This document shows positions 21,267-32,559 of a DNA stretch of 32,559 nucleotides, piece after piece. The notes below the pieces were generated by a model. That model made no database searches. It was given only the letters and a program-made list of their open reading frames with translations, and was not told the origin of the DNA. The DNA is from a virus: positions 1 through 32,559 of the IMG/VR virus record IMGVR_UViG_3300044630_003020; one strand, given 5' to 3'. Both the position numbers and the translations under genes were made by a program. Numbering within the stretch: position 1 is the first letter of the stretch; every line of letters begins with the position of its first letter.

Positions 21267-21832
21267 CAAACACCAATCCTTCGACGGCGGTAGATGCTAA
21301 GCAAGTCAGCAATCTGTTGGCTGGTCATCGGAATAATCTCTGGGGTGCTGTCTTGTGCTCCACCGTAATCGGGCTTGACCAGCTCGCTCATAAAAAGCGC
21401 AGTCGCATGCTTAATGGCAGGTGGAAGAGTAGCATACCCAGCGGTATACACGATAGTGTACTTTGAAGTCGGAGAAAACAACGTTGATTCGCTGGCAGGT
21501 CCCAAAAGAACCTTGCCAAACTTGTCTGTTTCGCTTGTCCGCACCAGAGTACTGGGAGTAGTTGTTGTTGTAACTGGAGTAGTTGCAATTGTTGTTTCAG
21601 AGATTGAAGTAATTGAAATCAACGGGTATTGAAGCGTCAAATAAGTTGAAGACCCATCCCCAACAAAGCTTTCTGTGTACGTTGCCTGTTCAAATATTCG
21701 TTCGCAAAACGTTTCAACCTGTTCAGTTGCGATTTCAATCAAGGAATCTAGCTGATCGTTGGAGTACTGGCGAAGCGCAATGCCCAAAGGCTTATCTTTG
21801 AACTCTGTCGCGGTGATGTACTTCCTCGCCAT
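21266..21832 (-). CDS. Head-tail connector (gp6-like adaptor)
   Basis: This 188-residue protein starts with helices typical of the gp6/gp15 adaptor family (ALRQYSNDQLDSLIEIATEQ, then VETFCERIFEQATYTESFVG). A strand-rich insert follows (TYLTLQYPLISITSISETTI), then SKYTIVYTAGYATLPPAIKH (the YTAGY-x-x-LP-x-x-IK motif is a hallmark of this family). A C-terminal helix ends in RRRRIGV. It lies after the basic protein and before the gp10-like gene. It should form a ring under the portal. Confidence 0.85.
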   Translation of the reverse strand: MARKYITATEFKDKPLGIALRQYSNDQLDSLIEIATEQVETFCERIFEQATYTESFVGDGSSTYLTLQYPLISITSISETTIATTPVTTTTTPSTLVRTSETDKFGKVLLGPASESTLFSPTSKYTIVYTAGYATLPPAIKHATALFMSELVKPDYGGAQDSTPEIIPMTSQQIADLLSIYRRRRIGV

Positions 21833-21841
21833 TGTGCCTCC

Positions 21842-22048
21842 TTAGGTTACTTTTCTCTTTTTCTTGTTACGAAACGAAGCAGGAATCATCTTTGCAGCAG
21901 CAAGTCGTGCTATGGTTATTAAACGCAGTCTTCGTCGCTTGAATGCAATTCTTCGTCTTGGTGAAATAGAAAACTTTTTATTAATGGCAAACTTACGAGT
22001 AAGTCTTCGCCTATTGGTTGTTTTTAGAAAGGGTCTTAACTTCGCCAT
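21842..22048 (-). CDS. Very basic 68-residue protein, protamine-like composition
   Basis: By hand count the protein has 26 Lys/Arg in 68 residues (38%) and no Asp or Glu. Clusters include NRRRLTRK, SPRRR, FKRRRLR and NKKKRK. I do not recognise a family. The start at 22048 was chosen because GGAGGG lies just before it, whereas an in-frame upstream start at 22102 has no good site and would overlap the glycosyltransferase gene far more. Even so, it overlaps the end of that gene by 38 bases. It sits within the head/connector cluster. Binding to packaged DNA, or to an acidic capsid surface, is an inference from charge only. It resembles ribosomal proteins in composition, but no known ribosomal protein pattern was seen. 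Confidence 0.7.
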   Translation of the reverse strand: MAKLRPFLKTTNRRRLTRKFAINKKFSISPRRRIAFKRRRLRLITIARLAAAKMIPASFRNKKKRKVT

Positions 22049-23195
22049 TGAATGCCCTCCATAGTGATGTGCGGTAGCCGTCCCATGAGAACTGCTTTGC
22101 ACGGATCAGTCCCTTCTCACGCATCTGCTCTCGCAGCGACGGGCTAAGGAACATCTTCTCAATCTCCGCCGCGATTGACTCTGGGCTGAGATTTGCATAT
22201 CGACTATGACTCTTATTGACTACCCAGTCGTGTGGCTCAATTAGAGCCCCAGCATCACCCAAAACTTCAGCGCCTGCGCCGTAGTTTGTATGAGCAACTG
22301 GAAGACCACAAGCCATTGCCTCAACAAGTGGTAGACCAAAGCCCTCGACCTGCGAAGGCAGGACAAAGCAGTCAGCCATGTTGTAGAGATCAACAAGACC
22401 AGGATAGTTATGGGAAGTAAGTGCAACTGCGTCATTGTGCTTTGCGTGCTTTCCAGAGAAGAGCACGTTATCCACAATGTCAAGTTGGTGAGCAAGCTGA
22501 GGGAGATCGTGTCCACCAAGATGGTAGTTATCAAACGGCACGGTGTGCGCGTAGAGCACCACTTGCGGGTGCTTATAAGCTACAATCTTAATCGCCTCGA
22601 ATAGCCGAGGCCACTGCTTACGCTCAACATTTTGAGCAACATTCATAACTACAAACTTGTCGTCCCAACCAACGGACTCCCGAAGGAAGCGTCGGTGTTC
22701 TGGCTCGTACTGGTAGAAGTCATCAGATACTCCATGGTATGCCATCGTTGACTCAAGTCCATTGCGCTTGAGTTCATCTACGCCATACTGCGAGCATGTA
22801 ATGATTTTCAAGTTCGGTGTCTGCTGTAGCACCTGAACCCAGTTGTAGTTCATTGGAGCACCCTCAATCGGCATGTAAACCGTAATCGGGTACTTAATCA
22901 GATCTCGGCGTAGTAGCCACATGACTACTGTTGCTGGATCTGCGATGATGTGTACCGCATCGATCTTATGCTTCTTCAGCGTGATCGATACGTTCTTCCA
23001 TCCGATCGCGTCTTTTTGCATTGACTCGATTGGATAGTAGTGATGTCCTTTGCCAAGATCACGCTTCTGCGTGTCCTGACCTCCAATGACCACCAACTGA
23101 TGACCGACAGACTTCAAGTGCTCTACAGCGACTGAGTTGACGATTCCGAAACCAGTTTTAAGAAACGGTGAATCACCGAGCATTAGGATCTTCAT
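22011..23195 (-). CDS. GT4-type glycosyltransferase (GT-B fold)
   Basis: The protein has 394 residues. The N-terminal Rossmann half begins MKILMLGDSPFLKTGFG, with a Gly-rich acceptor-side loop. The C-terminal half has MNVAQNVERKQWPRLFEAI (the N-x-x-RK-x-x-x-RL pattern of nucleotide-sugar binding) and EGFGLPLVEAMACGLP at residues 284-299, the E-x7-E motif of GT4 enzymes (E284 and E292), followed by GDAGALIEP. Both lobes look complete. The start overlaps the previous stop (ATGA). It lies inside the head gene cluster, two genes after the major capsid gene, instead of among the fibres. Modification of a virion protein, perhaps the capsid, is therefore more likely than DNA modification, but donor and acceptor are unknown. 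Confidence 0.9.
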   Translation of the reverse strand: MKILMLGDSPFLKTGFGIVNSVAVEHLKSVGHQLVVIGGQDTQKRDLGKGHHYYPIESMQKDAIGWKNVSITLKKHKIDAVHIIADPATVVMWLLRRDLIKYPITVYMPIEGAPMNYNWVQVLQQTPNLKIITCSQYGVDELKRNGLESTMAYHGVSDDFYQYEPEHRRFLRESVGWDDKFVVMNVAQNVERKQWPRLFEAIKIVAYKHPQVVLYAHTVPFDNYHLGGHDLPQLAHQLDIVDNVLFSGKHAKHNDAVALTSHNYPGLVDLYNMADCFVLPSQVEGFGLPLVEAMACGLPVAHTNYGAGAEVLGDAGALIEPHDWVVNKSHSRYANLSPESIAAEIEKMFLSPSLREQMREKGLIRAKQFSWDGYRTSLWRAFNGEVKTLSKNNQ

Positions 23196-23431
23196 GCTAC
23201 TTCATACCCATTCATTCGCATCCGATTAACCCAATGGGTATTCTCAGCTGGAATGTAGGCGACCCCATCTACTACTTCGACCTCTCCGTCATAGAACGTT
23301 TCAAGGCAATTGACTTTTTCCCAGTTTTCTGGTGAAAGCATCTTGATGAAACCTTCTCGGTCCTGTGCTGGACTTTTGTCGAGATCTTCTGTAATAAACT
23401 CAATACTAGCTTTCTTAGCCTTTGGCATCAT
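23192..23431 (-). CDS. Hypothetical small protein after the major capsid gene
   Basis: This 79-residue protein starts with Lys-rich MPKAKKASIEFITED and ends with VDGVAYIPAENTHWVNRMRM. I do not recognise a family. Two in-frame ATGs stand in tandem (23431 and 23428). AGGAGG lies 3 bases before the first and 6 before the second, so the second is the better start. The stop overlaps the glycosyltransferase start. The location between capsid and connector genes suggests a head accessory role (inference). Confidence 0.65.
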   Translation of the reverse strand: MMPKAKKASIEFITEDLDKSPAQDREGFIKMLSPENWEKVNCLETFYDGEVEVVDGVAYIPAENTHWVNRMRMNGYEVA

Positions 23432-23454
23432 GTGCCTCCTTCTGTGTGGTGTGG

Positions 23455-23482
23455 TAGGGGGATGGATTTCTCCACCCCCCTA
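23455..23482 (-). other. RNA hairpin with GAAA tetraloop downstream of the major capsid gene
   Basis: In minus-strand RNA the arms form 12 base pairs (TAGGGGGGTGGA against TCCATCCCCCTA) closed by a GAAA (GNRA) loop. One pair is G-U in this strand but would be an A-C mismatch in the other, so the late transcript is the functional one. No U-tract follows, so it is more likely an mRNA stability, processing or partial termination element after the highly expressed capsid gene. Confidence 0.8.
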
Positions 23483-23507
23483 GCAGCACCTAGTTCACGC
23501 TAAAAAA

Positions 23508-24383
23508 TTAGATCGTGAAGTTCTTGAGGCGCACAGGGCGACCCTCAAGAGCGAAGCCGAAGTACCCCTTGATGTAGAAGTCTTCAGCGTCCTTGGTCTT
23601 AGCAAGCATCTCCATCGTGAAGTCCTGGTTCACGATAAGCTTCGCGTCAGCACGTCGGAAGACGAGAATCTCGTTCTCCTCGTAGTGGTCGTCCGTAACG
23701 ATCGGCACGCCGTCGTACGAAAGAACGCGGAAGCCAGCGCCAACCTCAACTCGGTCGAGGAAGCGCTGCTGACCCTGAAGAAGGGCACTGATCTTGCGGC
23801 GAACTGCGCGGCTCGTCATAATAACGTCAGCCTCGCCCTTCGTGTCGTCAAGAGCCTTGTCCAACATGGCAAGGGTGAGAGCGGCAGCCGAAGCGTCCGT
23901 CGTACCACCCTCATCGCCAGGGGTCGAAGTGTTGATCTGATGCTTGATGCCGATGATACCAGCATTGGTATCTTCGGTGCCGTCGCCGACGCAGATCGCC
24001 GTGGCGAGTCGCTCAGCAATCACGCCCGAGTGGACGCGAATCTCTTCCTGTAGCGCGTTGACAACTCCACCAGCAGCCGCGATAAGCGGACCAGTGACTT
24101 CACCACGGGTGTACAGGTACTTGACGGTCTTTGCGACCTTAGCGTAGGTCGAGCTTGAAGCGCTTGGAAGTGAACCACCATCGGTGCTGAATGCAGCCGT
24201 AGGAAGCCCGCTTCGCTTGCGGATGTAATAGGTCTGTGTAGGCCAGTTTACACGCGTTACAACGCTAAGAACAGGTGTAGCCTTGGCAACGTAATCGCGA
24301 ATTACTGGATCGACTACCTCTGGGAGGAGGTATGCACCAGTAGATGCGACGGACGTGCTAAGAGCTCGCTCAATGTCAGCCAT
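23508..24383 (-). CDS. Major capsid protein, HK97 fold
   Basis: The 291-residue product has the order of the Phage_capsid family. An early segment GAYLLPEVVDPVIRDYVAKA precedes TQTYYIRKRSGLPTAAFSTD (E-loop region) and KTVKYLYTRGEVTGPLIAAA. The A domain has ALDDTKGEADVIMTSRAVRR, a motif found in many such capsid proteins, with FRVLSYDGVPIVTDDHYEEN and a final FALEGRPVRLKNFTI. No N-terminal scaffold domain is present, in agreement with a separate protease/scaffold gene 21 bases upstream. A strong hairpin follows the gene. Confidence 0.93.
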   Translation of the reverse strand: MADIERALSTSVASTGAYLLPEVVDPVIRDYVAKATPVLSVVTRVNWPTQTYYIRKRSGLPTAAFSTDGGSLPSASSSTYAKVAKTVKYLYTRGEVTGPLIAAAGGVVNALQEEIRVHSGVIAERLATAICVGDGTEDTNAGIIGIKHQINTSTPGDEGGTTDASAAALTLAMLDKALDDTKGEADVIMTSRAVRRKISALLQGQQRFLDRVEVGAGFRVLSYDGVPIVTDDHYEENEILVFRRADAKLIVNQDFTMEMLAKTKDAEDFYIKGYFGFALEGRPVRLKNFTI

Positions 24384-24404
24384 TGAAAGTCTCCTTAATT
24401 ATTA

Positions 24405-26225
24405 TTACTTGTAGATATTACCGAGAGCGTACTTCAACTTATCCTCATTGCTCATTGAGCCGAGGTCTGGAAGTCCAGTCTCAAACTTTTCGCGGACAAC
24501 GGCAGCAGGCAACTTGCCAGCAGGAAGCTCTTCGAGCTTCTTGATGTATTCAGCCTGCTTCTCGACTGTCTCACGGAGGACTGCCGTGCTCTCGTCAACC
24601 TTAGAGGTGACAAAGGCGGTAATAGCCTCAGCGAGGTCGCGGCGAACCGAAACCCCATTAAAGTCCACGTTCTCATCTGCAGGAGCATCTTCAGTCTTAG
24701 CGACTGGTGCTTCCGCTGCAGCCTGTGGTGCGTCGGGCTCAAATACCCCGAGCGTTTCGAGTTGCCCCTTCAACGCGTTGAATGCTTCGACAAGCTTCTC
24801 AGCATCGCGCTTGGCGATGCGTGCACGCTCGACTTCACCGTTCTCCTCAGCGGGAGCAGCAGCCTCTACAGGCGCAGCCTCCACGACGGGAGCTGCTTCA
24901 GCTGCAGGTGCAGCGTCAGCAACGGGTGCTTCAACAACGGGGGCTTCGGTCTGCTCGGTCACCTGAGCGGCAACGGGTTCCACAGACTCATTTGCGGCGA
25001 CGTTCTCAACCACTTCGGTTGCGTCGCTCTTAACGAGCTCTTCTGCCATATTTTCTCCAATCTCCTCGCCCTCGATGGAGCGAGCGAGCACAGTGCCGAA
25101 CGACGGTACCCACGAGGGGCGCGTCGTGTTACTAATTTCCTTCAACTTAATCTTGAGGAATCGGATAACCTTTTCTCCAGAGGAGGGGTCATCAACCATG
25201 CGGTACTGGACACCATCTCCAGCAATCGACATCCCATACTTCTTACCACGCTTAATTCGGCTATGCAAATACGCCGCTGCGGGGTTATCTGGGTGTAGGC
25301 GAACTTTGATGTTCAACCTGTAGTCGCTAGAAACAGAGCCATCCACAACTTCTCCAAGTTCGCGGAGGACACCATCTTTCATGTGATGGTCTAGGTAAGG
25401 TAGTGGATCACCATCGTTTGTGCGAGATACAATCTGATCCGCGAAGTCTTGAATCGCAGTGGGGTCCATCTCAGTCCCATGAGAATCTCGCTCGGGACCT
25501 GATGCCTGTCCATAGAGGAACAGTCCGCCATCCTGCTCTTCGGCACGATCGACTGGGATAGTGATTTTCCAGTTGTTAGTTGTCATTTGTGGCTCCTCAG
25601 AGCGCATGCTCATAAGAGGATTGATCTTTGTGACATCAGACATTTTCTTGCCGATGCTCATTTCAGTTTCAATCCATCCCTCACCAGCTGGCTGATAAAT
25701 CCTAATTGCCAGTGCTGGGTTTTCTGGACTTGCTGGGAGTGCAAAGTTTGAGTCTGGAAGACCATAAATGCCGTCAAGCATTACATGTTCTACCCTACCA
25801 CTAGCGAGACCAGATGGTGAATACCAACTGACAAAATCGCCTTCTTTTACTTCTCCTGCCATTGCACGCTCTTCCTCATCGTCTTGGGACCTTTCGTCTT
25901 TAACGATGCTATTAGCCCACGATTGACCAGCGTCTCCGCCCCAAGCGTCCCAAGCAACTCGACCAGGAGAGGGGTATCCCTCTTCTCCTGAACTAAAGCC
26001 TGTAGCTTTCTTGTCAACTTCGTGTCGAGCAAAGAACGATTTCATTCGTCCAAGTGTTGCAACAGAGATCTCTGCTCCACGAGCAAGATCTGCTGCGCGT
26101 TTTCGACCTACGTCAGTAAAGCCGCTTCCAGCTTTGCCTTCTTCGATCCACTTCAGTGCACGCTTTGCAGCTGCCCGAACGCCCTCTGGAGGACTGTATG
26201 ACTCTGCTCGTTCGATCTCAGACAT
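24405..26225 (-). CDS. Prohead protease fused to scaffold, with two N-terminal accessory domains
   Basis: The protein has 606 residues in four parts. Residues 10-107 are a helical domain common in environmental phages (VRAAAKRALKWIEEGKAGSG ... YPSPGRVAWDAWGGDAGQSW). Residues 128-200 resemble the small Tudor-like HVA1/DUF2945 domain (GDFVSWYSPSGLASGRVEHV ... ALAIRIYQPAGEGW). Residues 218-385 are the protease, with the expected His in LDHH (280/281) and Ser333 in YGMSIAGDG. Residues 400-606 are a scaffold: an Ala/Pro/Val/Glu-rich low-complexity linker (APVVEAPVADAAPAAEAAPV), then coiled coil (VLRETVEKQAEYIKKLEEL). It should drive capsid assembly and then cleave itself and others. The start overlaps the portal stop by 8 bases (ATGTCTGA). 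Confidence 0.88.
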   Translation of the reverse strand: MSEIERAESYSPPEGVRAAAKRALKWIEEGKAGSGFTDVGRKRAADLARGAEISVATLGRMKSFFARHEVDKKATGFSSGEEGYPSPGRVAWDAWGGDAGQSWANSIVKDERSQDDEEERAMAGEVKEGDFVSWYSPSGLASGRVEHVMLDGIYGLPDSNFALPASPENPALAIRIYQPAGEGWIETEMSIGKKMSDVTKINPLMSMRSEEPQMTTNNWKITIPVDRAEEQDGGLFLYGQASGPERDSHGTEMDPTAIQDFADQIVSRTNDGDPLPYLDHHMKDGVLRELGEVVDGSVSSDYRLNIKVRLHPDNPAAAYLHSRIKRGKKYGMSIAGDGVQYRMVDDPSSGEKVIRFLKIKLKEISNTTRPSWVPSFGTVLARSIEGEEIGENMAEELVKSDATEVVENVAANESVEPVAAQVTEQTEAPVVEAPVADAAPAAEAAPVVEAAPVEAAAPAEENGEVERARIAKRDAEKLVEAFNALKGQLETLGVFEPDAPQAAAEAPVAKTEDAPADENVDFNGVSVRRDLAEAITAFVTSKVDESTAVLRETVEKQAEYIKKLEELPAGKLPAAVVREKFETGLPDLGSMSNEDKLKYALGNIYK

Positions 26226-27486
26226 CAGTTTCCTCCGCTACATCGTCAGTCGTTTCTCCAACAGGTTCTGCTGGAGCTGGCGTATTTGGCTGCGGAGCTC
26301 CGCCAAGGAGTTGAGATACTGGCAAGATACCAGTCGAGGTTTGAATAAACGGCTCGCTCCCGTTCGGAATTGCAGCCAATCCTAGCTGATTACGAATGTA
26401 GTTCAAGTCGTAGATTCCATGAGTTAGTGCATCAATATACAACTTCATCTGGGTCGCTTCGTCTCGAGTATCAACTTCACGATGTTCAAACATCACGTCA
26501 TCAATACCAAAGGTTGTCATGATCAAGTTTTCATTAATGACTTCTTCAACAATACCTTGCAAGGGAGAGATTGTCTCCGTTCGATAGGTCTTGTCGTTCT
26601 CAGCACTCTGTGAGCGGTTTGCGCTTTCAGAGGTTCCGCCGAGCTTGGTGTATGGTAGGTCGAAGACCGCAAGGATCTCCATCGTCAACTGCCGTCGACC
26701 CTCGATAAACTGCATCTCTGCAGGTGAGGAAACGGACTTGCTGACTTCCACATCGCCCTCCAAAAGGAGCGGCTTGTGTGCGTTCGCAGCCGAAGTGTAT
26801 TCCTTCTTAAGGAACTCTCGGTTGCGCTCAACCTCTTCCTTCGAGGCATTCTTCATGTTGAAGACAATGCCTGTCTGGGCTGAGTTAGCAAAGAATGATT
26901 CGTTGTAGGTTTGCGCGAAAAGATCTTGCGCGACGGTTGAGCCAAGCGACTCAAGCGGGCTTAGCCCGTAGAAGTCGTTGTCTGGGTCGGCGATCTTGAA
27001 GTGCAGGAACTCATCTGGCTCGTACTGAGTCTCGCGTCCATTCTTTGGATCACGGGTGATGTAGCTCATCACCTCACGGGTCTCAGTATCGATGACAAGG
27101 TTTACCTGCTGTGGCGCGATACGATAGAATCGGAACGGAACGCCATCACGCGCTGGGAGAATATACCAGAACGCATCACCGTAGATCAGAAGATCTTGGT
27201 AGGTCTGGCGGAGCAAAGAAATAATCTTTGACCGACGAAACGTCAGGTCTATCTTTTGCGCGTTTGACTCATTCAATTCGTCCTTTGAATCAACAGGGGA
27301 CAACTGATAACCAGTCGAAACGGCAGTGCGCGAAATCTTGTCAATAACAGCACGGACAATAGGGTGCTGCTTGTACATTCGCGTGTAAGTTGAGTGAGAC
27401 TTAAATGGTGTCTCGCGGTTTTGATTCCCCTCGATCCGAGGTGGAGTCTGGGAACGGACTACGGGGATTCGCTCGATGTTAGCCAC
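26218..27486 (-). CDS. Portal protein, HK97-type, GTG start
   Basis: The protein has 422 residues. Family features are YTRMYKQHPIVRAVIDKISR near the N-terminus, then LLRQTYQDLLIYGDAFWYIL, FYRIAPQQVNLVIDTETREV, EFLHFKIADPDNDFYGLSPL and YNESFFANSAQTGIVFNM. The late EILAVFDLPYTKLGG is followed by a helical stem and a Pro/Thr-rich tail. The start was set at GTG 27486 because AAGGAGG lies 6 bases before it. An in-frame ATG at 27516 would give a 10-residue basic extension without a ribosome site. The gene overlaps the zinc-ribbon gene by 8 bases. The portal is the dodecameric DNA channel of the head. Confidence 0.92.
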   Translation of the reverse strand: MANIERIPVVRSQTPPRIEGNQNRETPFKSHSTYTRMYKQHPIVRAVIDKISRTAVSTGYQLSPVDSKDELNESNAQKIDLTFRRSKIISLLRQTYQDLLIYGDAFWYILPARDGVPFRFYRIAPQQVNLVIDTETREVMSYITRDPKNGRETQYEPDEFLHFKIADPDNDFYGLSPLESLGSTVAQDLFAQTYNESFFANSAQTGIVFNMKNASKEEVERNREFLKKEYTSAANAHKPLLLEGDVEVSKSVSSPAEMQFIEGRRQLTMEILAVFDLPYTKLGGTSESANRSQSAENDKTYRTETISPLQGIVEEVINENLIMTTFGIDDVMFEHREVDTRDEATQMKLYIDALTHGIYDLNYIRNQLGLAAIPNGSEPFIQTSTGILPVSQLLGGAPQPNTPAPAEPVGETTDDVAEETDV

Positions 27487-27688
27487 GGCTTTCCTCCTTG
27501 GTCTTCTTTGCAACAAGGATTACATCCTCATTGGGCCAGACAACGGTCATTGCGCATTTGCGACATGGACCGCTGACTCGACCTTCAATCTCTCGATAGA
27601 GATCCTTAAACTTGATGCGCAGTACTCCGTCTTCACCTTCGATACCGAAGAGTGAGCCGCAGTGCGCGCACTTCACCGAATTCGGCAT
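27479..27688 (-). CDS. Small zinc-ribbon protein between terminase and portal
   Basis: This 69-residue protein has two CxxC pairs, at residues 7/10 (VKCAHCGS) and 42/45 (GPCRKCAM), with a charged helix-like middle (VLRIKFKDLYREIEGRV). It resembles small Com-like zinc fingers of Mu-type phages in size and Cys spacing, but I would not claim the function. The start at 27688 (MPNSV) is preferred over an in-frame upstream start at 27742 because AAGG lies a few bases before it and the motif begins directly after. It overlaps the portal start by 8 bases. Confidence 0.75.
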   Translation of the reverse strand: MPNSVKCAHCGSLFGIEGEDGVLRIKFKDLYREIEGRVSGPCRKCAMTVVWPNEDVILVAKKTKEESRG

Positions 27689-27782
27689 CCTGCACCTTCT
27701 GTCTATATGTGTTGGTGAACGGGGGGAGACCACGCGTCTCAACCGTTACCCTGCGCCCTTGCAATGCTCGGAGAGCAGCCCG

Positions 27783-29204
27783 TCACCATGCAAAGTTGAT
27801 GGCAGGAGCTTTGCGACCCATGCCGTAAATTGCGAGCATCGCTGACCAGAAATAGTCGTCGTGCCCATCGGAGCGAGCTTTGAACTGGTAGTTACCAGCC
27901 TCGGTCTTCTTGCGCTCGATGGCGTGGATCTCCGCGAGGAGCTCACGTTTTCGAGGGAATCGAACCTTGCCCATTTGCATATCGCCTTTGAAAGTTGTTG
28001 CCCATCGTTCTTTGTTGGAGTTCGTAAAGGTTACAGCCTCAACGATGCCACCATGCTTAGAAACTAGCTGTTCCGCAATAACACCACCAACGCCAGTAGC
28101 GTCAATGGTAACTCGGTTAGGCTTAATGTCTGCAATAAGTTTGTTGAAAAACTCAACTTGTTTGCTATAGTCATCCTGTGTCTCAAATGTCTTGTGGATA
28201 GTGATGTTGCCAGTGTCATCGTCGATTGTAGCCACAGTGACTACAGTCTTATCGATCTTCTTCGCAATGTCAATTCCGATAACGTAACTGAGATTAGGGT
28301 CGTAGTCTTTCTGGTTTAGTTCGTCATCTACACAGTTAACAATCAAACCCCATGGGTAAAAGTTGACCGACTCATCCGCGAAGGAGCACTCGTACTCCTG
28401 TTGGAACGCGTCGAGACCCATGTTATTGTAAATAGACTTAATCGAATCCGTACCCCACCGCTTTACGCGCTGGTCGGTATCGAAGTCTGGCGCAAGCGCC
28501 GTGCTCTCGGCTGGATCGATGGTCATGATAGAGCATTCCCACCAGGGCACAATGTGCACTGAGTATTCTGGGTAGCGAGACCGATCGTTCGCCATCTCAA
28601 AGAAGAGACCGCTTTGTCCGAGAGGTGTAGATACAACGGTCAGCCGACCATCGCCTCGAGTAGTCGCAGGTATGGCAGCGTCGTAGAGCTTTCGAGCGTC
28701 TCGCACAAATGCGAACTCATCGAAGTAGACATCTTTCTCGCCGCCACGGACCGCTGCAGAAGCGGGCTGGCTGATCATGTATGAAGTATTCGGGTGATCG
28801 TGAAGGCTGAACTCAAACTCTGCAGACGTGTAGACGGCAGACTTGAAGCCAGACTTATCAGGGATTGAGTAGTAGAATTGTTTGGCATAGTTGATCTTGT
28901 CCGACGCTTCCTTCTGGTTGATGGAAACGTAGTTAACCTTCTTGCCAGTCGAGGTAGCAACGCGGTGAAGACCCTCTCCTGAAATGATGTAGGAGAATCC
29001 AATCTGACGCGACTTAGCGACAAGACGGAACTTACTCCGATCGTTCAGGAAGTTGATCTGATACGGCTCTAGCTTCGTCGGCTCCCCCTTGGTCTTCGTG
29101 AGAAGTTCCAGGTAGAGGGCGGGCGACACCTTCAATAGACCCGCCAAATCCTCCTGCGAGAGTTGCGAGCCGAGCTTGGTCGATTCCTCGTGATTCAAAG
29201 ACAT
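27783..29204 (-). CDS. terL: Terminase large subunit
   Basis: The protein has 473 residues. The ATPase half has an adenine-binding segment LEPYQINFLNDR, a variant Walker A KSRQIGFS at residues 64-71 (Lys at the front, Phe where Lys is usual, like lambda gpA), Walker B VYFDEFAF with D162/E163, and a coupling motif VVSTPLGQSG. The nuclease half has the RNase H-like acidic residues D312 (VIGIDIAKK), D368 (TIDATGVGG) and D449/D450 (SDGHDDYFWSA). It packages DNA into the prohead through the portal. Its start overlaps the small subunit gene by 173 bases and lacks a clear ribosome site, so it may rely on coupling. The 94-base gap after the gene holds only two short hairpins (TGCTC-TCC-GAGCA and GAGAC-GCGTG-GTCTC). 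Confidence 0.93.
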   Translation of the reverse strand: MSLNHEESTKLGSQLSQEDLAGLLKVSPALYLELLTKTKGEPTKLEPYQINFLNDRSKFRLVAKSRQIGFSYIISGEGLHRVATSTGKKVNYVSINQKEASDKINYAKQFYYSIPDKSGFKSAVYTSAEFEFSLHDHPNTSYMISQPASAAVRGGEKDVYFDEFAFVRDARKLYDAAIPATTRGDGRLTVVSTPLGQSGLFFEMANDRSRYPEYSVHIVPWWECSIMTIDPAESTALAPDFDTDQRVKRWGTDSIKSIYNNMGLDAFQQEYECSFADESVNFYPWGLIVNCVDDELNQKDYDPNLSYVIGIDIAKKIDKTVVTVATIDDDTGNITIHKTFETQDDYSKQVEFFNKLIADIKPNRVTIDATGVGGVIAEQLVSKHGGIVEAVTFTNSNKERWATTFKGDMQMGKVRFPRKRELLAEIHAIERKKTEAGNYQFKARSDGHDDYFWSAMLAIYGMGRKAPAINFAW

Positions 29205-29595
29205 TTTGTATAAACGTCACGGCATTCGGCGTATCTTCGCCCTTCTCGTGCTTCTCCATCTGGAATCGCAACGCGAGAAGTTCTTTGATAGTGCTCGAGC
29301 GCTGTGTCGCCTCCTTCGTCAGCTGTCCACCCTCAATCTCTTGCGCCAGTTGTGGCAAGAGGGCTTTAAGCTGGAGGGTAAGGAAGATGTCCAGGTCTTT
29401 CTCAAGAACTGGCTTATCCGTACCCTCGAGCACGCCTGCGAGGTAGTTCCAGTCTGCCTGTGGGAGGAACCTGCCAACCTTGTCCTTGAGCTCGTTGAGC
29501 TGCTGGGTATCAAGCTTTGGCTTATTTCGAGCCCCAGAAGGTCGTCCACGGCGGATCTGACCCTGGGTCTTGGAAACGATCGTCTCATCAGACAT
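29032..29595 (-). CDS. terS: Terminase small subunit (DNA-binding)
   Basis: The protein has 187 residues. The N-terminus has a basic AT-hook-like motif RRGRPSGARNK (about residues 15-25). The centre is helical (LDIFLTLQLKALLPQLAQEI; STIKELLALRFQMEKHEKGE), consistent with the oligomerisation core of small terminases. The last 57 residues (from about GIDQARLATLAGG) lie in the overlap with the large subunit. They are Gly/Ala/Asp/Glu-rich with no clear structure, as expected if that part is overprinted. The gene is placed directly before the large subunit. Recognition of the packaging site is assumed from the family. Confidence 0.78.
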   Translation of the reverse strand: MSDETIVSKTQGQIRRGRPSGARNKPKLDTQQLNELKDKVGRFLPQADWNYLAGVLEGTDKPVLEKDLDIFLTLQLKALLPQLAQEIEGGQLTKEATQRSSTIKELLALRFQMEKHEKGEDTPNAVTFIQNVFESRGIDQARLATLAGGFGGSIEGVARPLPGTSHEDQGGADEARAVSDQLPERSE

Positions 29596-30058
29596 CTGGT
29601 GTCTCTTTTCTTGGTCGCTTGCGAAGCGGGCTTGGGTCCCGCTTGTATCGCCGCTTATAGTAGCGCACGGCTACTGGATAGTCACGGGCAACCCGCAAGT
29701 CCCAGCGTCGGCACTGAATCGGTGACATATACTGCTTATGCAGTCGGAACAGGTACTTCGCCCACCGCTTGGAGTGTTCCGAGCGGGTGGCGACGTGGGC
29801 TAGTTCGTGGAGCGCCGTGTCAATGTCGGCGGAGCAGAGGGTGAGCTTGTGTACCCAGTCCTCGGCGAACCCCGCGTCGCGGCACATCTGGTCAGCGTGG
29901 TAATGCAGGCTGACCTGGCGCAAAAAAATTTTGTGGTCTGTGACCGCCCTCGCCATGATAAGTAGAGCTGGCTTATATCGCTTGAGATAATCCTTTGTCA
30001 TGCCCTTCCCGCATACCACCTTAAATGGTAGACTGGAAAACCAATCTGGATGTCTCAT
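29588..30058 (-). CDS. HELAH-motif metalloprotease-like protein, first gene of the late operon
   Basis: The protein has 156 residues. Residues 82-90 read ALHELAHVA, a HExxH zinc-binding motif, with a further His at 95 (SEHSKRWAKYLF) in the place of a third ligand for SprT/zincin-like small enzymes. The C-terminus is strongly basic (YYKRRYKRDPSPLRKRPRKE). Small HELAH proteins of this type occur in actinophages and other siphophages near packaging genes, with function unclear. Alternatives are a protease or a DNA-bound SprT-like protein. A GGGAG ribosome site lies 8 bases before the ATG. The gene overlaps the terminase small subunit start by 8 bases. Confidence 0.75.
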   Translation of the reverse strand: MRHPDWFSSLPFKVVCGKGMTKDYLKRYKPALLIMARAVTDHKIFLRQVSLHYHADQMCRDAGFAEDWVHKLTLCSADIDTALHELAHVATRSEHSKRWAKYLFRLHKQYMSPIQCRRWDLRVARDYPVAVRYYKRRYKRDPSPLRKRPRKETPDV

Positions 30059-30083
30059 AGATATACTCCCATATACTCATTAG

Positions 30084-30300
30084 CTGGGTTAACTGGGTTA
30101 GATTATCTTACTGGTAAGAAATTTACCCTTCACTCTATACGCGCTTTTTGAGGGTATTTTGGTCTCATATAATAGTACCACTTATATTTTATAACATATA
30201 CCAGGTTAGCCTGGGTTATTTTCTTAGAGGAGGAGGGGTAGGAGCAGAGTTCCAGACAGAGTTCCGTAGAGTTTCCCCACGGTCGGCCTGGGTTAGATTA
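30084..30300 (+). repeat. Four copies of CTGGGTTA (two extended to CTGGGTTAGATTA)
   Basis: Exact copies lie at 30084-30091, 30093-30100, 30211-30218 and 30288-30295. The second and fourth extend to CTGGGTTAGATTA (30093-30105 and 30288-30300). Copies one and two are spaced by 9 bases. The third directly follows a perfect 5-base-arm dyad CCAGG-TTAG-CCTGG at 30201-30214. The pattern is that of a multi-copy binding site for a regulator or replication initiator. Confidence 0.7.
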
Positions 30301-30312
30301 GGTGTCTTTGCG

Positions 30313-30341
30313 TCTACAACATAAGTTCTTACTTATATAAT
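30313..30341 (+). promoter_or_regulatory. Candidate sigma-70 promoter for the rightward genes
   Basis: TCTACA (30313-30318, 4 of 6 to TTGACA) is followed after 17 bases by a perfect TATAAT (30336-30341). Transcription would start near 30348, about 220 bases before the first rightward gene. This is a consensus match only. A second TATAAT at 30168-30173 has only a poor -35 (TTTTTG). Confidence 0.4.
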
Positions 30342-30569: not shown

Positions 30570-31205
30570 ATGAAGATGACTCACAATAGAATCACGGCGG
30601 AGATTATCCGCCAGGTCGCAGCGGCGGTCGCTGCGCTCCATACTGGAAACCTGCGAGGGTATGCCGATCGTGAGGATATGGCGCAGGATGCGCTCATGAT
30701 TCTCGCAACGGATCCCGCTGCTACGGTCGCTGCAGCGGTGCGCGCTGCATACAATGCGAACCGTGAGGAGCGGTCAGGGGATGGCGCAGCGGTGCGCTTC
30801 GCCTACTTCTCGCAAGCGGTGAACGGCAAGAATGGCGAGAGGAAGGATCTGGGATCCGTACTGGCCGATCAGATCGCAGACAAGGCGCACGAGGTGCGCG
30901 GTGCAGATGCGGAGCGCGCTGCACTGGTCGCAGCGGTGGTCGCGGTGCGCCACTCGCACACCGTGGCAGCGCACGGTGCAGAACTGGCAGCACGCGGTGC
31001 TGCTAACGGTGCACGAGGCGCAGCGAATGATGCTGCGATCCTCGCCGAACTGGAAGCGGTGGGCGGTGCTCACTACGGGTACGCTGCGAAGGTCGCTGCG
31101 AACCTGCGCGCACGAGGGATCCGCACCACCGCCAACGCAGTGCGGGTAGCGGTGAATCGTGCGAAGGCGCGCACCGAGGGCGGTGCACACTCTAGCCGAG
31201 ACTAG
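30570..31205 (+). CDS. Alanine-rich DNA-binding or sigma-like protein
   Basis: This protein has 211 residues, about a quarter of them Ala. Residues 31-45 (YADREDMAQDALMIL) resemble the helix 2.1-2.2 motif of sigma-70 region 2 (the E-D-x-x-Q-D/E pattern). Residues 170-201 (YAAKVAANLRARGIRTTANA then VRVAVNRAKAR) could be a helix-turn-helix as in sigma region 4. The middle (ALVAAVVAVRHSHTVAAHGA and the AARGAANGARGAAND run) is low complexity. The gene is much richer in G+C than the late genes. AAAGGAG is 2 bases before the ATG at 30570 but 8 bases before an ATG at 30576, so the true start may be 30576. GGGGAG at 30555-30560 would suit 30570. A role as a phage transcription factor for repeated rightward promoters is a hypothesis. 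Confidence 0.7.
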   Translation: MKMTHNRITAEIIRQVAAAVAALHTGNLRGYADREDMAQDALMILATDPAATVAAAVRAAYNANREERSGDGAAVRFAYFSQAVNGKNGERKDLGSVLADQIADKAHEVRGADAERAALVAAVVAVRHSHTVAAHGAELAARGAANGARGAANDAAILAELEAVGGAHYGYAAKVAANLRARGIRTTANAVRVAVNRAKARTEGGAHSSRD

Positions 31206-31308: not shown

Positions 31309-31590
31309 ATGGCAGCACACGCAGCACCAACGCACACAGCACAGGGTGCAGAGATTGTCGCATGGTCAAAGAGGTACACGGAGGATCCCTACGATCAGGG
31401 ACGCACCGTATGCCGACCGTGCGGGGATCCATTCTGGATCCTACAGGACTGGGATATGAGCATGGCACCGATCACCGAGAGCGCACTGATCGCCACCATG
31501 TACAGTCCGTGGTGCTCATCATGCGGCGTAGACATTCTGGAGATGCTTGCAGACATGGCAGAGGCAGCACAGGCAGAGTACAGAGCCTGA
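31309..31590 (+). CDS. Hypothetical small protein with two CxxC pairs
   Basis: This 93-residue protein has Cys pairs at 35/38 (VCRPCGD) and 69/72 (WCSSCG), about 30 residues apart, which is a zinc-ribbon or treble-clef-like layout. The C-terminus is a helix (DILEMLADMAEAAQAEYRA). I do not recognise a family. AGGGGAG lies 9 bases before the ATG. The gene has its own structured leader and ends 16 bases before a strong terminator, so it looks like an independently regulated unit. An overlapping frame at 31362-31664 has no ribosome site and was not chosen. Confidence 0.7.
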   Translation: MAAHAAPTHTAQGAEIVAWSKRYTEDPYDQGRTVCRPCGDPFWILQDWDMSMAPITESALIATMYSPWCSSCGVDILEMLADMAEAAQAEYRA

Positions 31591-31606
31591 CGGACGGACG
31601 CACCAC

Positions 31607-31647
31607 GCGGGGAGATTGGCACGGGCCAGTCTCCCCGCTTTTTTTTT
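31607..31647 (+). terminator. Strong intrinsic terminator after the second rightward gene
   Basis: GCGGGGAGATTGGC (31607-31620) pairs with GCCAGTCTCCCCGC (31625-31638) over 14 positions, including one U-G pair valid only in plus-strand RNA. The loop is ACGG, and T9 follows (31639-31647). Confidence 0.92.
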
Positions 31648-31652
31648 GCTTT

Positions 31653-31807
31653 TTATATGTGTAATGATTCTGGCACCGCACATAATCTTATATGTGAAAT
31701 GATTATATTTATATGTGTAATGATTATGAATCTGAGATTGTTTCACATATGCTTCTTCTAGTGGCTTGCTTTCAGGGTAAACCATCACGCGGATATGTGA
31801 AATGATC
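31653..31807 (+). repeat. Cluster of five TATGTG(A/T)AATGAT elements between terminator and next gene
   Basis: Direct copies begin at 31653 (TTATATGTGTAATGATT), 31688 (TTATATGTGAAATGATT), 31709 (TTATATGTGTAATGATT) and 31792 (GATATGTGAAATGATC). An inverted copy reads ATTGTTTCACATATG at 31737-31751. No gene lies in this stretch. Repeat spacing is irregular (35, 21 and 83 bases for the direct copies). Confidence 0.85.
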
Positions 31808-31859
31808 TCGGCTAGAGGGTAGGAGTGCAAAAGCATTCCACTAGTAGGAGGACTCGGAG
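31792..31859 (+). promoter_or_regulatory. Leader unit with conserved hairpin and Shine-Dalgarno, copy 1
   Basis: From 31792 the unit carries the repeat element, then CTCGGCTAGAGGGTA, then a hairpin GGAGTGC-AAAA-GCATTCC (31822-31839), then CACTAGTAGGAGGA with GGAGG 8 bases before the ATG at 31860. The same unit recurs at 32106-32172. The 34 bases 31792-31825 match 32106-32139 with one difference. Confidence 0.85.
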
Positions 31860-32018
31860 ATGTTTGAGGTCTTTATCAGCGGAGCAGCATCAGGAGCACT
31901 GGCGGTCTTGGTTCTGATCCTTATCATCCAGAAGATTGAGCAATATCGGGATCGGCAGGATTTTCTAGAAAGTAGGGCGGCACTATACGACAAGGCACGA
32001 CGAGAAGGCAGAATCTAA
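31860..32018 (+). CDS. Small membrane protein, 52 residues
   Basis: A short gene beginning MFEVFISGAASGALAVLVLI has one transmembrane segment at residues 5-23. A charged coil-like tail follows (IQKIEQYRDRQDFLESRAAL then YDKARREGRI). The GGAGG site is 8 bases before the ATG, and TAA is at 32016-32018. It is framed by its own leader and by a terminator 6 bases after the stop, which strongly supports a real gene despite its length. Function is unknown. Possibilities are a membrane-located host-takeover or superinfection factor, or a small holin-like protein, with no evidence to choose. Confidence 0.75.
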   Translation: MFEVFISGAASGALAVLVLILIIQKIEQYRDRQDFLESRAALYDKARREGRI

Positions 32019-32024
32019 AGAGAG

Positions 32025-32061
32025 AAGGCAGGGGGGTCAGCGTACCTCCCTGCCTTTTTTT
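32025..32061 (+). terminator. Strong intrinsic terminator after the third rightward gene
   Basis: AAGGCAGGGGGGT (32025-32037) pairs with ACCTCCCTGCCTT (32044-32056) over 13 positions with one G-U pair valid in plus-strand RNA. The loop is CAGCGT, and T7 (32055-32061) overlaps the stem end. Confidence 0.92.
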
Positions 32062-32067
32062 ATTGTG

Positions 32068-32121
32068 TTATATGTGAAATGATTGTGGCTCCGCATATTT
32101 TTTATGATATGTGAAACGATC
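32068..32121 (+). repeat. Two further TATGTGAAA(T/C)GAT elements
   Basis: Copies lie at 32068-32084 (TTATATGTGAAATGATT) and 32106-32121 (GATATGTGAAACGATC). The segment from 32068 continues as GTGGCTCCGCA, matching the segment after the copy at 31653 (CTGGCACCGCA), so the repeated block is longer than the core. Confidence 0.85.
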
Positions 32122-32172
32122 TCGGCTAGAGGGTAGGAGAGAAAACCTCTCCACTAGTAGGAGGATCAGGAG
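32106..32172 (+). promoter_or_regulatory. Leader unit with conserved hairpin and Shine-Dalgarno, copy 2
   Basis: This unit parallels 31792-31859: repeat element, CTCGGCTAGAGGGTA, then hairpin GGAGAG-AAAAC-CTCTCC (32136-32152), then CACTAGTAGGAGGA with GGAGG 8 bases before the ATG at 32173. Compared with copy 1, the outer stem is the same on the 5' side, and the inner stem bases differ on both sides while pairing is kept. Confidence 0.85.
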
Positions 32173-32511
32173 ATGAATCTACGCGATAGAATCCTGCGGG
32201 ATGGCGGAGCGACGATCAAGAGTCGCACCCTCACCCCGATCACCCCGAAGCGGGGGTACGCCGTGGGAGCCACGACGGAGACGGCGATCAGGCTCCCGAT
32301 CACGGCGACGGAGACGACAATCCGTCAGGCATTGTTCCTCATCTGGTATCGGTTCGGGACTCGGCATCTGGGAGCGTGGGTGGATGGCGATACCATCCAT
32401 CTGGATCCTACGACAATCGTCCGCACGAAGCGGGATGCACTCAGACTCGGGAGGGAGAATCGCCAGATGGCGATCTACAATCTGGCGAAGGGTCAGACGA
32501 TCACCATCTAG
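32173..32511 (+). CDS. Hypothetical protein, 112 residues
   Basis: A Thr/Arg/Ile-rich soluble protein: an N-terminal basic part (MNLRDRILRDGGATIKSRTL; PITPKRGYAVGATT), a central alpha/beta part (TTIRQALFLIWYRFGTRHLG then AWVDGDTIHLDPTTIV), and a C-terminal part (TKRDALRLGRENRQMAIYNL then AKGQTITI). The central and C-terminal pattern is similar in style to small actinophage proteins of unknown function, but I cannot name a family. The start is fixed by the conserved leader, with GGAGG 8 bases upstream. A hairpin follows the stop. The plus-strand frame was preferred over the near-equal minus-strand frame (32179-32532) because only it has a ribosome site and leader. Confidence 0.75.
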   Translation: MNLRDRILRDGGATIKSRTLTPITPKRGYAVGATTETAIRLPITATETTIRQALFLIWYRFGTRHLGAWVDGDTIHLDPTTIVRTKRDALRLGRENRQMAIYNLAKGQTITI

Positions 32512-32515
32512 GGGA

Positions 32516-32545
32516 TAGGGGAGGGTGGACAATCACCCTCCCCTA
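32516..32545 (+). other. Perfect hairpin after the fourth rightward gene
   Basis: TAGGGGAGGGTG (32516-32527) pairs perfectly with CACCCTCCCCTA (32534-32545), 12 base pairs around GACAAT. Only CCATATG follows, so there is no U-tract and it is at most a weak terminator, unlike the two upstream ones. Confidence 0.75.
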
Positions 32546-32547
32546 CC

Positions 32548-32559
32548 ATATGTGAAATG
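32548..32559 (+). repeat. Eighth copy of the TATGTGAAATG element, cut by the window edge
   Basis: ATATGTGAAATG ends the window. It directly follows the hairpin after the fourth gene, just as earlier copies follow terminators, and suggests that another cassette begins beyond the edge. Confidence 0.8.

Follow-up and report, generated by a model that had tools for sequence, protein, structure and literature searches.

Repeated two-block elements and covarying leader hairpins at single early genes suggest a phage-specific promoter family in a group of related phages

In the phage analyzed here and in its relatives, many small early genes are each preceded by a near-identical copy of an asymmetric two-block DNA element of 23 to 25 bp. 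The repeat family is replaced as a whole between relatives, one early protein diverges in parallel with it, and the stems of the hairpins found in many of the leaders covary. With slightly better than even confidence, and from sequence comparison, we read these copies as a family of promoters that are specific to the phage, each serving one early gene, and that a phage factor recognizes together with host RNA polymerase. A wider claim, which we advance only tentatively, is that a novel sigma-like factor family that current profiles fail to detect drives dozens of promoters in each genome, every one for a single gene, that promoter specificity has been replaced genome-wide together with the factor, and that the covarying hairpin insulates translation from the purine-rich edge of the promoter.

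The window (the whole stretch of DNA analyzed, 32,559 b) is an entire IMG/VR record and represents a phage fragment. Leftward genes at 352 to 30058 are mostly structural (terminase, portal, SU10-type capsid, tape measure, and tail); the structural cluster includes a glycosyltransferase gene (22011 to 23195), and a thioredoxin-like protein is encoded toward the left end (1017 to 1676). The early region runs rightward from ~30.3 kb and is cut by the contig end, the final 900 bases being the beginning of a long early region. No DNA matches to the window were found among 50,697 phage records, nor was a prophage or relative found among sequenced genomes.

Relatives were obtained by scanning viral contigs. 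The start of the 83-kb contig IMGVR_UViG_3300027608_000021 (L013 to L017) matches window positions 21294 to 30313 and, further on, the contig matches positions 1 to 30313 again. It holds two nonidentical copies of the structural region ~55 kb apart and, judged by its sequence, is evidently an assembly of two related phages, whose halves are referred to here as A and B (the window phage is W). Relative C is a 57-kb contig that encodes a bacterial DnaB helicase and is probably complete, since its ends repeat 127 b. L026 and L023 are close relatives, and L039, L040, and L041 are more distant (terminase identity, 77 to 78%). A search with a MoxR-like protein returned only phages that had already been found, and G003/L010 was a false lead that carries no repeats. 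In the early regions of A, B, and C, this MoxR-like AAA ATPase (L016:2400-3389) adjoins a von Willebrand A protein gene (719 to 727 aa).

The early region of the window contains the following features.

30313 to 30341, + strand: TCTACA-17-TATAAT, a candidate host-type (sigma-70-like) promoter ahead of the regulator-like gene, matched by consensus only (2 matches versus 2.5 expected in shuffles)
30570 to 31205, + strand: candidate trans-acting factor, 211 aa, first rightward gene
31309 to 31590, + strand: zinc-ribbon-like gene, 93 aa, weak MqsA-type match below cutoff
31607 to 31638, + strand: intrinsic terminator closing the first rightward operon
31656 to 31668, + strand: class-2 copy (left block without right block)
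31691 to 31703, + strand: class-2 copy
31712 to 31724, + strand: class-2 copy, inverted pair with 31737 to 31749
31737 to 31749, - strand: class-2 copy in reverse orientation, 2 mismatches
31792 to 31816, + strand: class-1 element, promoter candidate of unit 1, GATATGTGAAATGATCTCGGCTAGA
31822 to 31839, + strand: leader hairpin of unit 1, GGAGTGC-AAAA-GCATTCC
31845 to 31852, + strand: ribosome binding site of unit 1, GTAGGAGG
31860 to 32018, + strand: unit 1 gene, 52 aa, no assigned function, hydrophobic N terminus
32020 to 32061, + strand: intrinsic terminator of unit 1
32071 to 32083, + strand: class-2 copy
32106 to 32130, + strand: class-1 element, promoter candidate of unit 2, GATATGTGAAACGATCTCGGCTAGA
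32136 to 32152, + strand: leader hairpin of unit 2, GGAGAG-AAAAC-CTCTCC
32158 to 32165, + strand: ribosome binding site of unit 2, GTAGGAGG
32173 to 32511, + strand: unit 2 gene, 112 aa, no assigned function
32549 to 32559, + strand: beginning of another element copy, truncated where the contig ends

Between 31656 and 32120 there are seven near-copies of TATGTGAAATGAT, six on the + strand and one on the - strand (31737). Allowing up to 2 mismatches, nine matches occur in the window against 0.71 expected; none of 100 shuffles reached nine, and a chance origin of the repeats is thereby ruled out. The class-1 element of the window phage consists of TATGTGAAATGAT as its left block and CGGCTAGA as its right block. 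An initial annotation, made from the window alone, had reported that the leaders of two consecutive small genes match over 34 bases with one change, differ in their hairpins, and share a ribosome-site sequence at the same distance from ATG. All of this is borne out: positions 31792 to 31825 and 32106 to 32139 differ by a single T/C change, both hairpins are present as described, and CACTAGTAGGAGGA is common to both leaders with equal spacing. The eighth, truncated copy at the right edge is likewise real, and the further units it was taken to predict are present in the relatives. About 18 to 19 promoter-leader units were counted in A, 23 to 29 in B and C, and 17 to 23 in L039, L040, and L041, in support of the proposal of a modular expression system for small accessory genes. 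The claim that each unit ends in a strong terminator survived in part. It holds for 31607 to 31638 and 32020 to 32061, but the strong hairpin GGGGAGGGTGGACAATCACCCTCCCC that follows the second unit gene (stop at 32511; hairpin within 32512 to 32548) has no T run, and across all relatives terminators within the 140 nt upstream are confined to 11 of 53 units with a hairpin leader (shuffles, 12 of 212) and 1 of 51 with a short leader.

In total, 133 class-1 units were collected from eight sources, and in 107 an open reading frame (ORF) starts within 56 nt downstream. Leaders were ~28 to 56 nt long in 56 units and short (≤27 nt) in 51, and the other 26 units had no nearby ORF. In A, a unit comprises the element, a constant CGGCTAGAGGGTAG, and then either a hairpin with a second ribosome site or a ribosome site directly. 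The elements at equivalent positions in B and C (TGTTAGGGTTTAGGGTATA...), L039 (AAGCCCGTAATGGTNNGGGTTGATAGT), L040 (TAGCCCGTAATGGTTGGTGTATA), and L041 (AAGCCCGTAATGATGTCGGTGGATAGT) are 23 to 25 bp long and differ from those of W and A, and copies inside each genome are near-identical. Counted from the base that follows TAKA (TAGA, TATA, or GATA), positions about -25 to -1 were conserved in the sequence logos of all five groups, and positions before these were not. The class-1 core is an asymmetric two-block element whose right block differs between phages and is fixed within each; close to the right block, all groups have xANNNT in common. Class-2 equivalents occur at equivalent places as TGTTAGGTTCTAGGGTCAG in B and C and as GTGTAATGAT in L039, L040, and L041; auxiliary binding sites or insulators are possible roles for these copies. 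Four features had escaped the initial annotation: the element is a 25-bp, two-block, phage-specific signal that switches as a set with one early protein; a hairpin is missing from about half of the units, in which the signal leads directly into the ribosome site; there are additional left-block copies lacking the right block; and certain units precede conserved noncoding sequence.

Between W/A and B/C the entire element set is replaced without mixing. The A part has 17 right-block sites and no B-type site, the B part has 29 B-type and no A-type sites, and C has 25 B-type sites and none of type A. The W/A, B/C, and L040 types are unmixed, and the types of L039 and L041 are alike and cross-match. 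When 13 genes of A were paired with their orthologues in B, the A member had a type A element and the B member a type B element in 12 of the pairs, the pattern that a shared trans-acting reader would produce. The unit 2 gene (112 aa) has orthologues in all relatives, each preceded by the element of its own phage. The head and packaging proteins of the switching phages remain 86 to 98% identical. Because these phages share ancestry, independent switches are few, and the genome-wide switch may amount to only one or two independent events.

The best candidate for such a reader would be the 211-aa protein encoded at 30570 to 31205, in what would be the first gene of the early operon. It has an orthologue in every relative having an early region, and it is the most divergent early protein of >100 aa between groups, with 92% identity within W/A, 78% within B/C, and 40 to 42% across, compared with a typical identity of ~77%. 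Between A and B the candidate is 41% identical, the terminase 93%, the MoxR-like protein 93 to 95%, and the neighboring 112-aa protein 77 to 81%, although other early proteins diverge too (e.g., the protein at A 16785, with 49%). The helix-turn-helix (HTH) part of the candidate is identical (100%) within W, A, and L023 and 50% identical to that of B/C, and L026 combines a B/C-type protein with B/C-type sites. A phage-specific signal ahead of many genes thus follows the candidate between relatives, as is characteristic of sigma-factor promoters.

By eye, the candidate shows an EDxxQEA-like motif near region 2 ('REDMAQDALMILA') and a C-terminal HTH-like motif ('VAANLRARGIRTTANAVRVAVNRAKART'), and a six-frame search of the 83-kb contig gave a subthreshold Sigma70_r2 match (E = 0.014) at the motif of the B orthologue. 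The sigma region 4 profile did not match the candidate, and comparisons with Pfam, NCBIfam, and PHROGs gave nothing above cutoff; no match was found among PDB sequences or phage-record proteins. AlphaFold2 models were poor (pLDDT of 69 and 59 for two models), and with these models Foldseek and VIA-align returned no significant match; Mycobacterium tuberculosis sigma H appeared at a Z of 3.2 amid unrelated rows in a structure search, which is meaningless by itself. From its sequence the candidate is possibly a divergent sigma-like protein, a leading hypothesis only. Upstream, L026 carries a TTACAGTATAAG..TTATATAATATT block similar to the promoter candidate at 30313 to 30341, and the 93-aa zinc-ribbon-like gene is probably cotranscribed with the regulator-like gene.

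In the mechanism that we propose, the class-1 element would act as a two-block start signal of 23 to 25 bp for one early gene and would be recognized by a DNA-binding factor that the phage encodes and that would work with host RNA polymerase; this factor is probably a divergent sigma-like protein made from a host-type promoter. Because the right block differs between phages, a factor that recognizes both blocks, as sigma does, is favored. The copies having the left block alone argue instead for an activator rather than sigma, and one of them is inverted, which is not expected of sigma sites. A MotA-like arrangement, in which the left block is an activator box at the -35 place, host sigma reads xANNNT as a -10 within or following the right block, and the early HTH protein is the activator, is the strongest of the alternatives, though we consider it unlikely. 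It would account for left blocks that stand alone and in both orientations, as an activator or operator box does, for the sharing of xANNNT by all groups, and for the lack of sigma family hits above cutoff. It fits poorly with a right block that is itself phage specific and fixed within each phage, with the 'GAGGGT' of W/A, which is poor as a host -10, and with the weak Sigma70_r2 similarity of the B orthologue.

The leader hairpins provide a separate line of evidence. Hairpin leaders (n = 53) had a mean minimum free energy of -10.98, versus -6.44 for dinucleotide-shuffled sequences, and the short leaders (n = 51), which serve as an internal control, did not differ from shuffled sequences (-3.5 versus -3.0). 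Covariation was assessed on ten ungapped 8-bp stems, drawn from four genome types and matched in the lengths of stem and loop. The stem covariation score was 0.569, versus 0.291 for shuffled stems, and was reached by none of 500 shuffles; 98.8% of stem cells were paired (versus 86.5%), a percentage inflated by the choice of stems for pairing, and 5 of 8 pairs changed on both sides, compensatory changes which that choice alone does not explain. Slid controls collapsed. The earlier suggestion that the RNA fold is under selection, drawn from two copies in the window, is strengthened by this covariation in relatives.

The 5' arm of the hairpin is GGAG-like and the 3' arm CUCC-like. In about half of the units, we propose, the downstream GGAGG edge of the signal would double as the ribosome site; in the others an inserted hairpin would absorb the promoter-imposed GGAG in its 5' arm, pairing it with the CUCC-like 3' arm, and a second, open AGGAGG would serve the gene. 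In folding predictions, the mean probability that the ribosome site is open was 0.62 for the full leader and 0.37 without the 5' arm. The modeled hairpin thus probably keeps its own 3' arm and the competing GGAG of the promoter from interfering with the real ribosome site, and by analogy with ompA and papA stem-loops it may also protect the mRNA 5' end.

Stems begin ~0 to 5 nt past the conserved T after the right block, a few including this T, and the ribosome sites of short leaders lie there also. A normal -10 at xANNNT would place the start inside the hairpin or beyond the ribosome site; this leaves two options, an unusually close start immediately after TAKA or hairpins that function in read-through RNA. 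Since hairpins and short-leader ribosome sites touch the conserved T, these parts must sit in some RNA, and terminators seldom precede short-leader units (1 of 51). It is therefore conceivable, if improbable, that the genes are read from upstream promoters and that the repeats and hairpins are SAS-like signals for transcript processing or translation. Strong terminators before some units, in the window and in 11 of 53 hairpin units, speak against this, as do the strict conservation of a 25-bp block that does not contribute to the hairpin and its genome-wide switching with a DNA-binding-like protein.

The repeats might also be operators or stoperators at which, as in cluster A mycobacteriophages, a phage repressor would bind and silence many early promoters. 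Asymmetric 13-bp sites, many per genome and in one main orientation, that codiverge with a DNA-binding-like protein would suit such a system. We nevertheless judge it quite improbable, given that class-1 copies keep a constant distance to gene starts and have a conserved right block, that no integrase or repressor was recognized among the annotated part of the relative C genes, and that 13-bp GGTGGMTGTCAAG sites numbered 0 in the window end and 0 to 4 per strand elsewhere (0 to 4 in shuffled sequences). Promoters of a T7-like single-subunit phage RNA polymerase, contiguous ~25-bp signals ending at the start site, are the least probable alternative and very improbable: the contiguous core does end in TATA, GATA, or TAGA just before G-rich sequence, and the hairpin and ribosome-site positions would suit a start immediately after it, but PF00940 (RNA_pol) had no match in six records (nor in control genomes), a scan for polymerase motifs in the ORFs of relative C, a contig with terminal repeats of 127 b, gave no candidate, and most large proteins hold other assignments. 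An archaeal-type TATA promoter, considered after the halovirus HF2 paper, was dropped, as the left blocks of L039/L041 and B/C are not AT-rich and C has a bacterial DnaB helicase.

To our knowledge, SAS/ESAS-like repeats of actinobacterial phages have been known since 2011 with no function assigned. The initial annotation had named no family for the leader, and indeed no tested named motif occurred above chance, but relatives in kind do exist in the SAS/ESAS of cluster K and of Microbacterium EF phages. The SAS of cluster K is a 13-bp sequence (GGGATAGGAGCCC) at the ribosome site, and the ESAS is an imperfect 17-bp inverted repeat upstream of it, for which RNA hairpins were judged unlikely (PMC3203893); promoters have been proposed inside the ESAS (PMC11373665). 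As in cluster K, many near-identical copies lie here at the starts of small nonstructural genes in one main orientation, the consensus varies between subgroups (subclusters in cluster K), and function is unproven in both. In contrast to the ESAS, the core here is an asymmetric two-block element, and the inverted repeat is a variable, covarying hairpin downstream of it. With up to 2 changes, GGGATAGGAGCCC occurred 0 times in the window end and 0 to 2 times per strand elsewhere, as in shuffles; despite its resemblance to cluster K SAS/ESAS, the unit system does not belong to that family. An RNA role, thought unlikely for the ESAS, gains evidence here from the covarying hairpins.

Among Microbacterium phages, EF phages have SAS/ESAS centered on GTAGAG, and EC and EI phages have a repeated intergenic motif and a sigma factor gene (PMC7302621). 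These share with our phages a repeated intergenic motif upstream of many starts, and the EF core GTAGAG resembles CTAGAG here; the EF SAS, EC, and EG motifs were absent, and no sequence relation was found in phage records. The sigma-factor promoters of phages phiEco32 and 7-11, where sigma identity is established, drive long operons from few copies (PMC4331800). Similarities include structural and functional genes in opposite clusters and short phage-specific promoters without a classic -35, and in phiEco32 and 7-11 site specificity follows the sigma factor; in our phages, however, dozens of copies stand at single genes, sigma identity is hypothetical, and the consensus TAATGTATA was absent. 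Halovirus HF2 has two classes of intergenic repeats that are proven viral promoters by reporter assay and primer extension (PMC8707807). Two classes of conserved intergenic repeats are found here also, but HF2 is an archaeal virus with TATA/BRE promoters, and its gamma motif was not above chance here. The 5'-terminal stem-loops of ompA and papA stabilize mRNA, according to work cited in PMC3997798; here too a stem-loop is predicted near the 5' end of the mRNA, ahead of the ribosome site, but it is repeated over many leaders of one phage and its stems covary. Under the promoter reading, there are five promoter specificities, each matched by a distinct version of one small protein, so that the pairing of factor and site is easily testable; if true, this reading would yield, besides a new transcription-factor family, a compact panel of orthogonal phage promoters whose leaders are insulated.

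Some ORF-less promoter units precede conserved noncoding sequence. In six phages such a unit is followed by ~170 nt of conserved, foldable sequence: A (L016, R 12021), B (L013, R 67532), C (L018, G2r 55745), and the early regions of L039, L040, and L041 (4198, 3740, and 4240, respectively). This stretch has a mean identity of 79%, shows changes on both sides in 7 of 36 predicted pairs, has no Rfam match, and is a candidate new phage noncoding RNA on the basis of its sequence. Across 116 kb of relatives, Rfam gave 0 matches above the gathering score; the few hits with E < 1 were to microRNA and riboswitch models far below it and were rejected. A long structured noncoding stretch also lies behind a class-1 element just before the MoxR-like gene in A (R 19351), B (R 76290), and C (G2r 6261), with a strong hairpin (CTCTGGTGAGTGGG...CCCACTCACCAGAG) that is alike in A and B and partly so in C, and no Rfam match. 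Two more ORF-less promoter units stand before conserved, possibly structured sequence, at L039 early 5137, L041 5232, and L040 4730 and also at R 12973, R 69166, and G2r 61.
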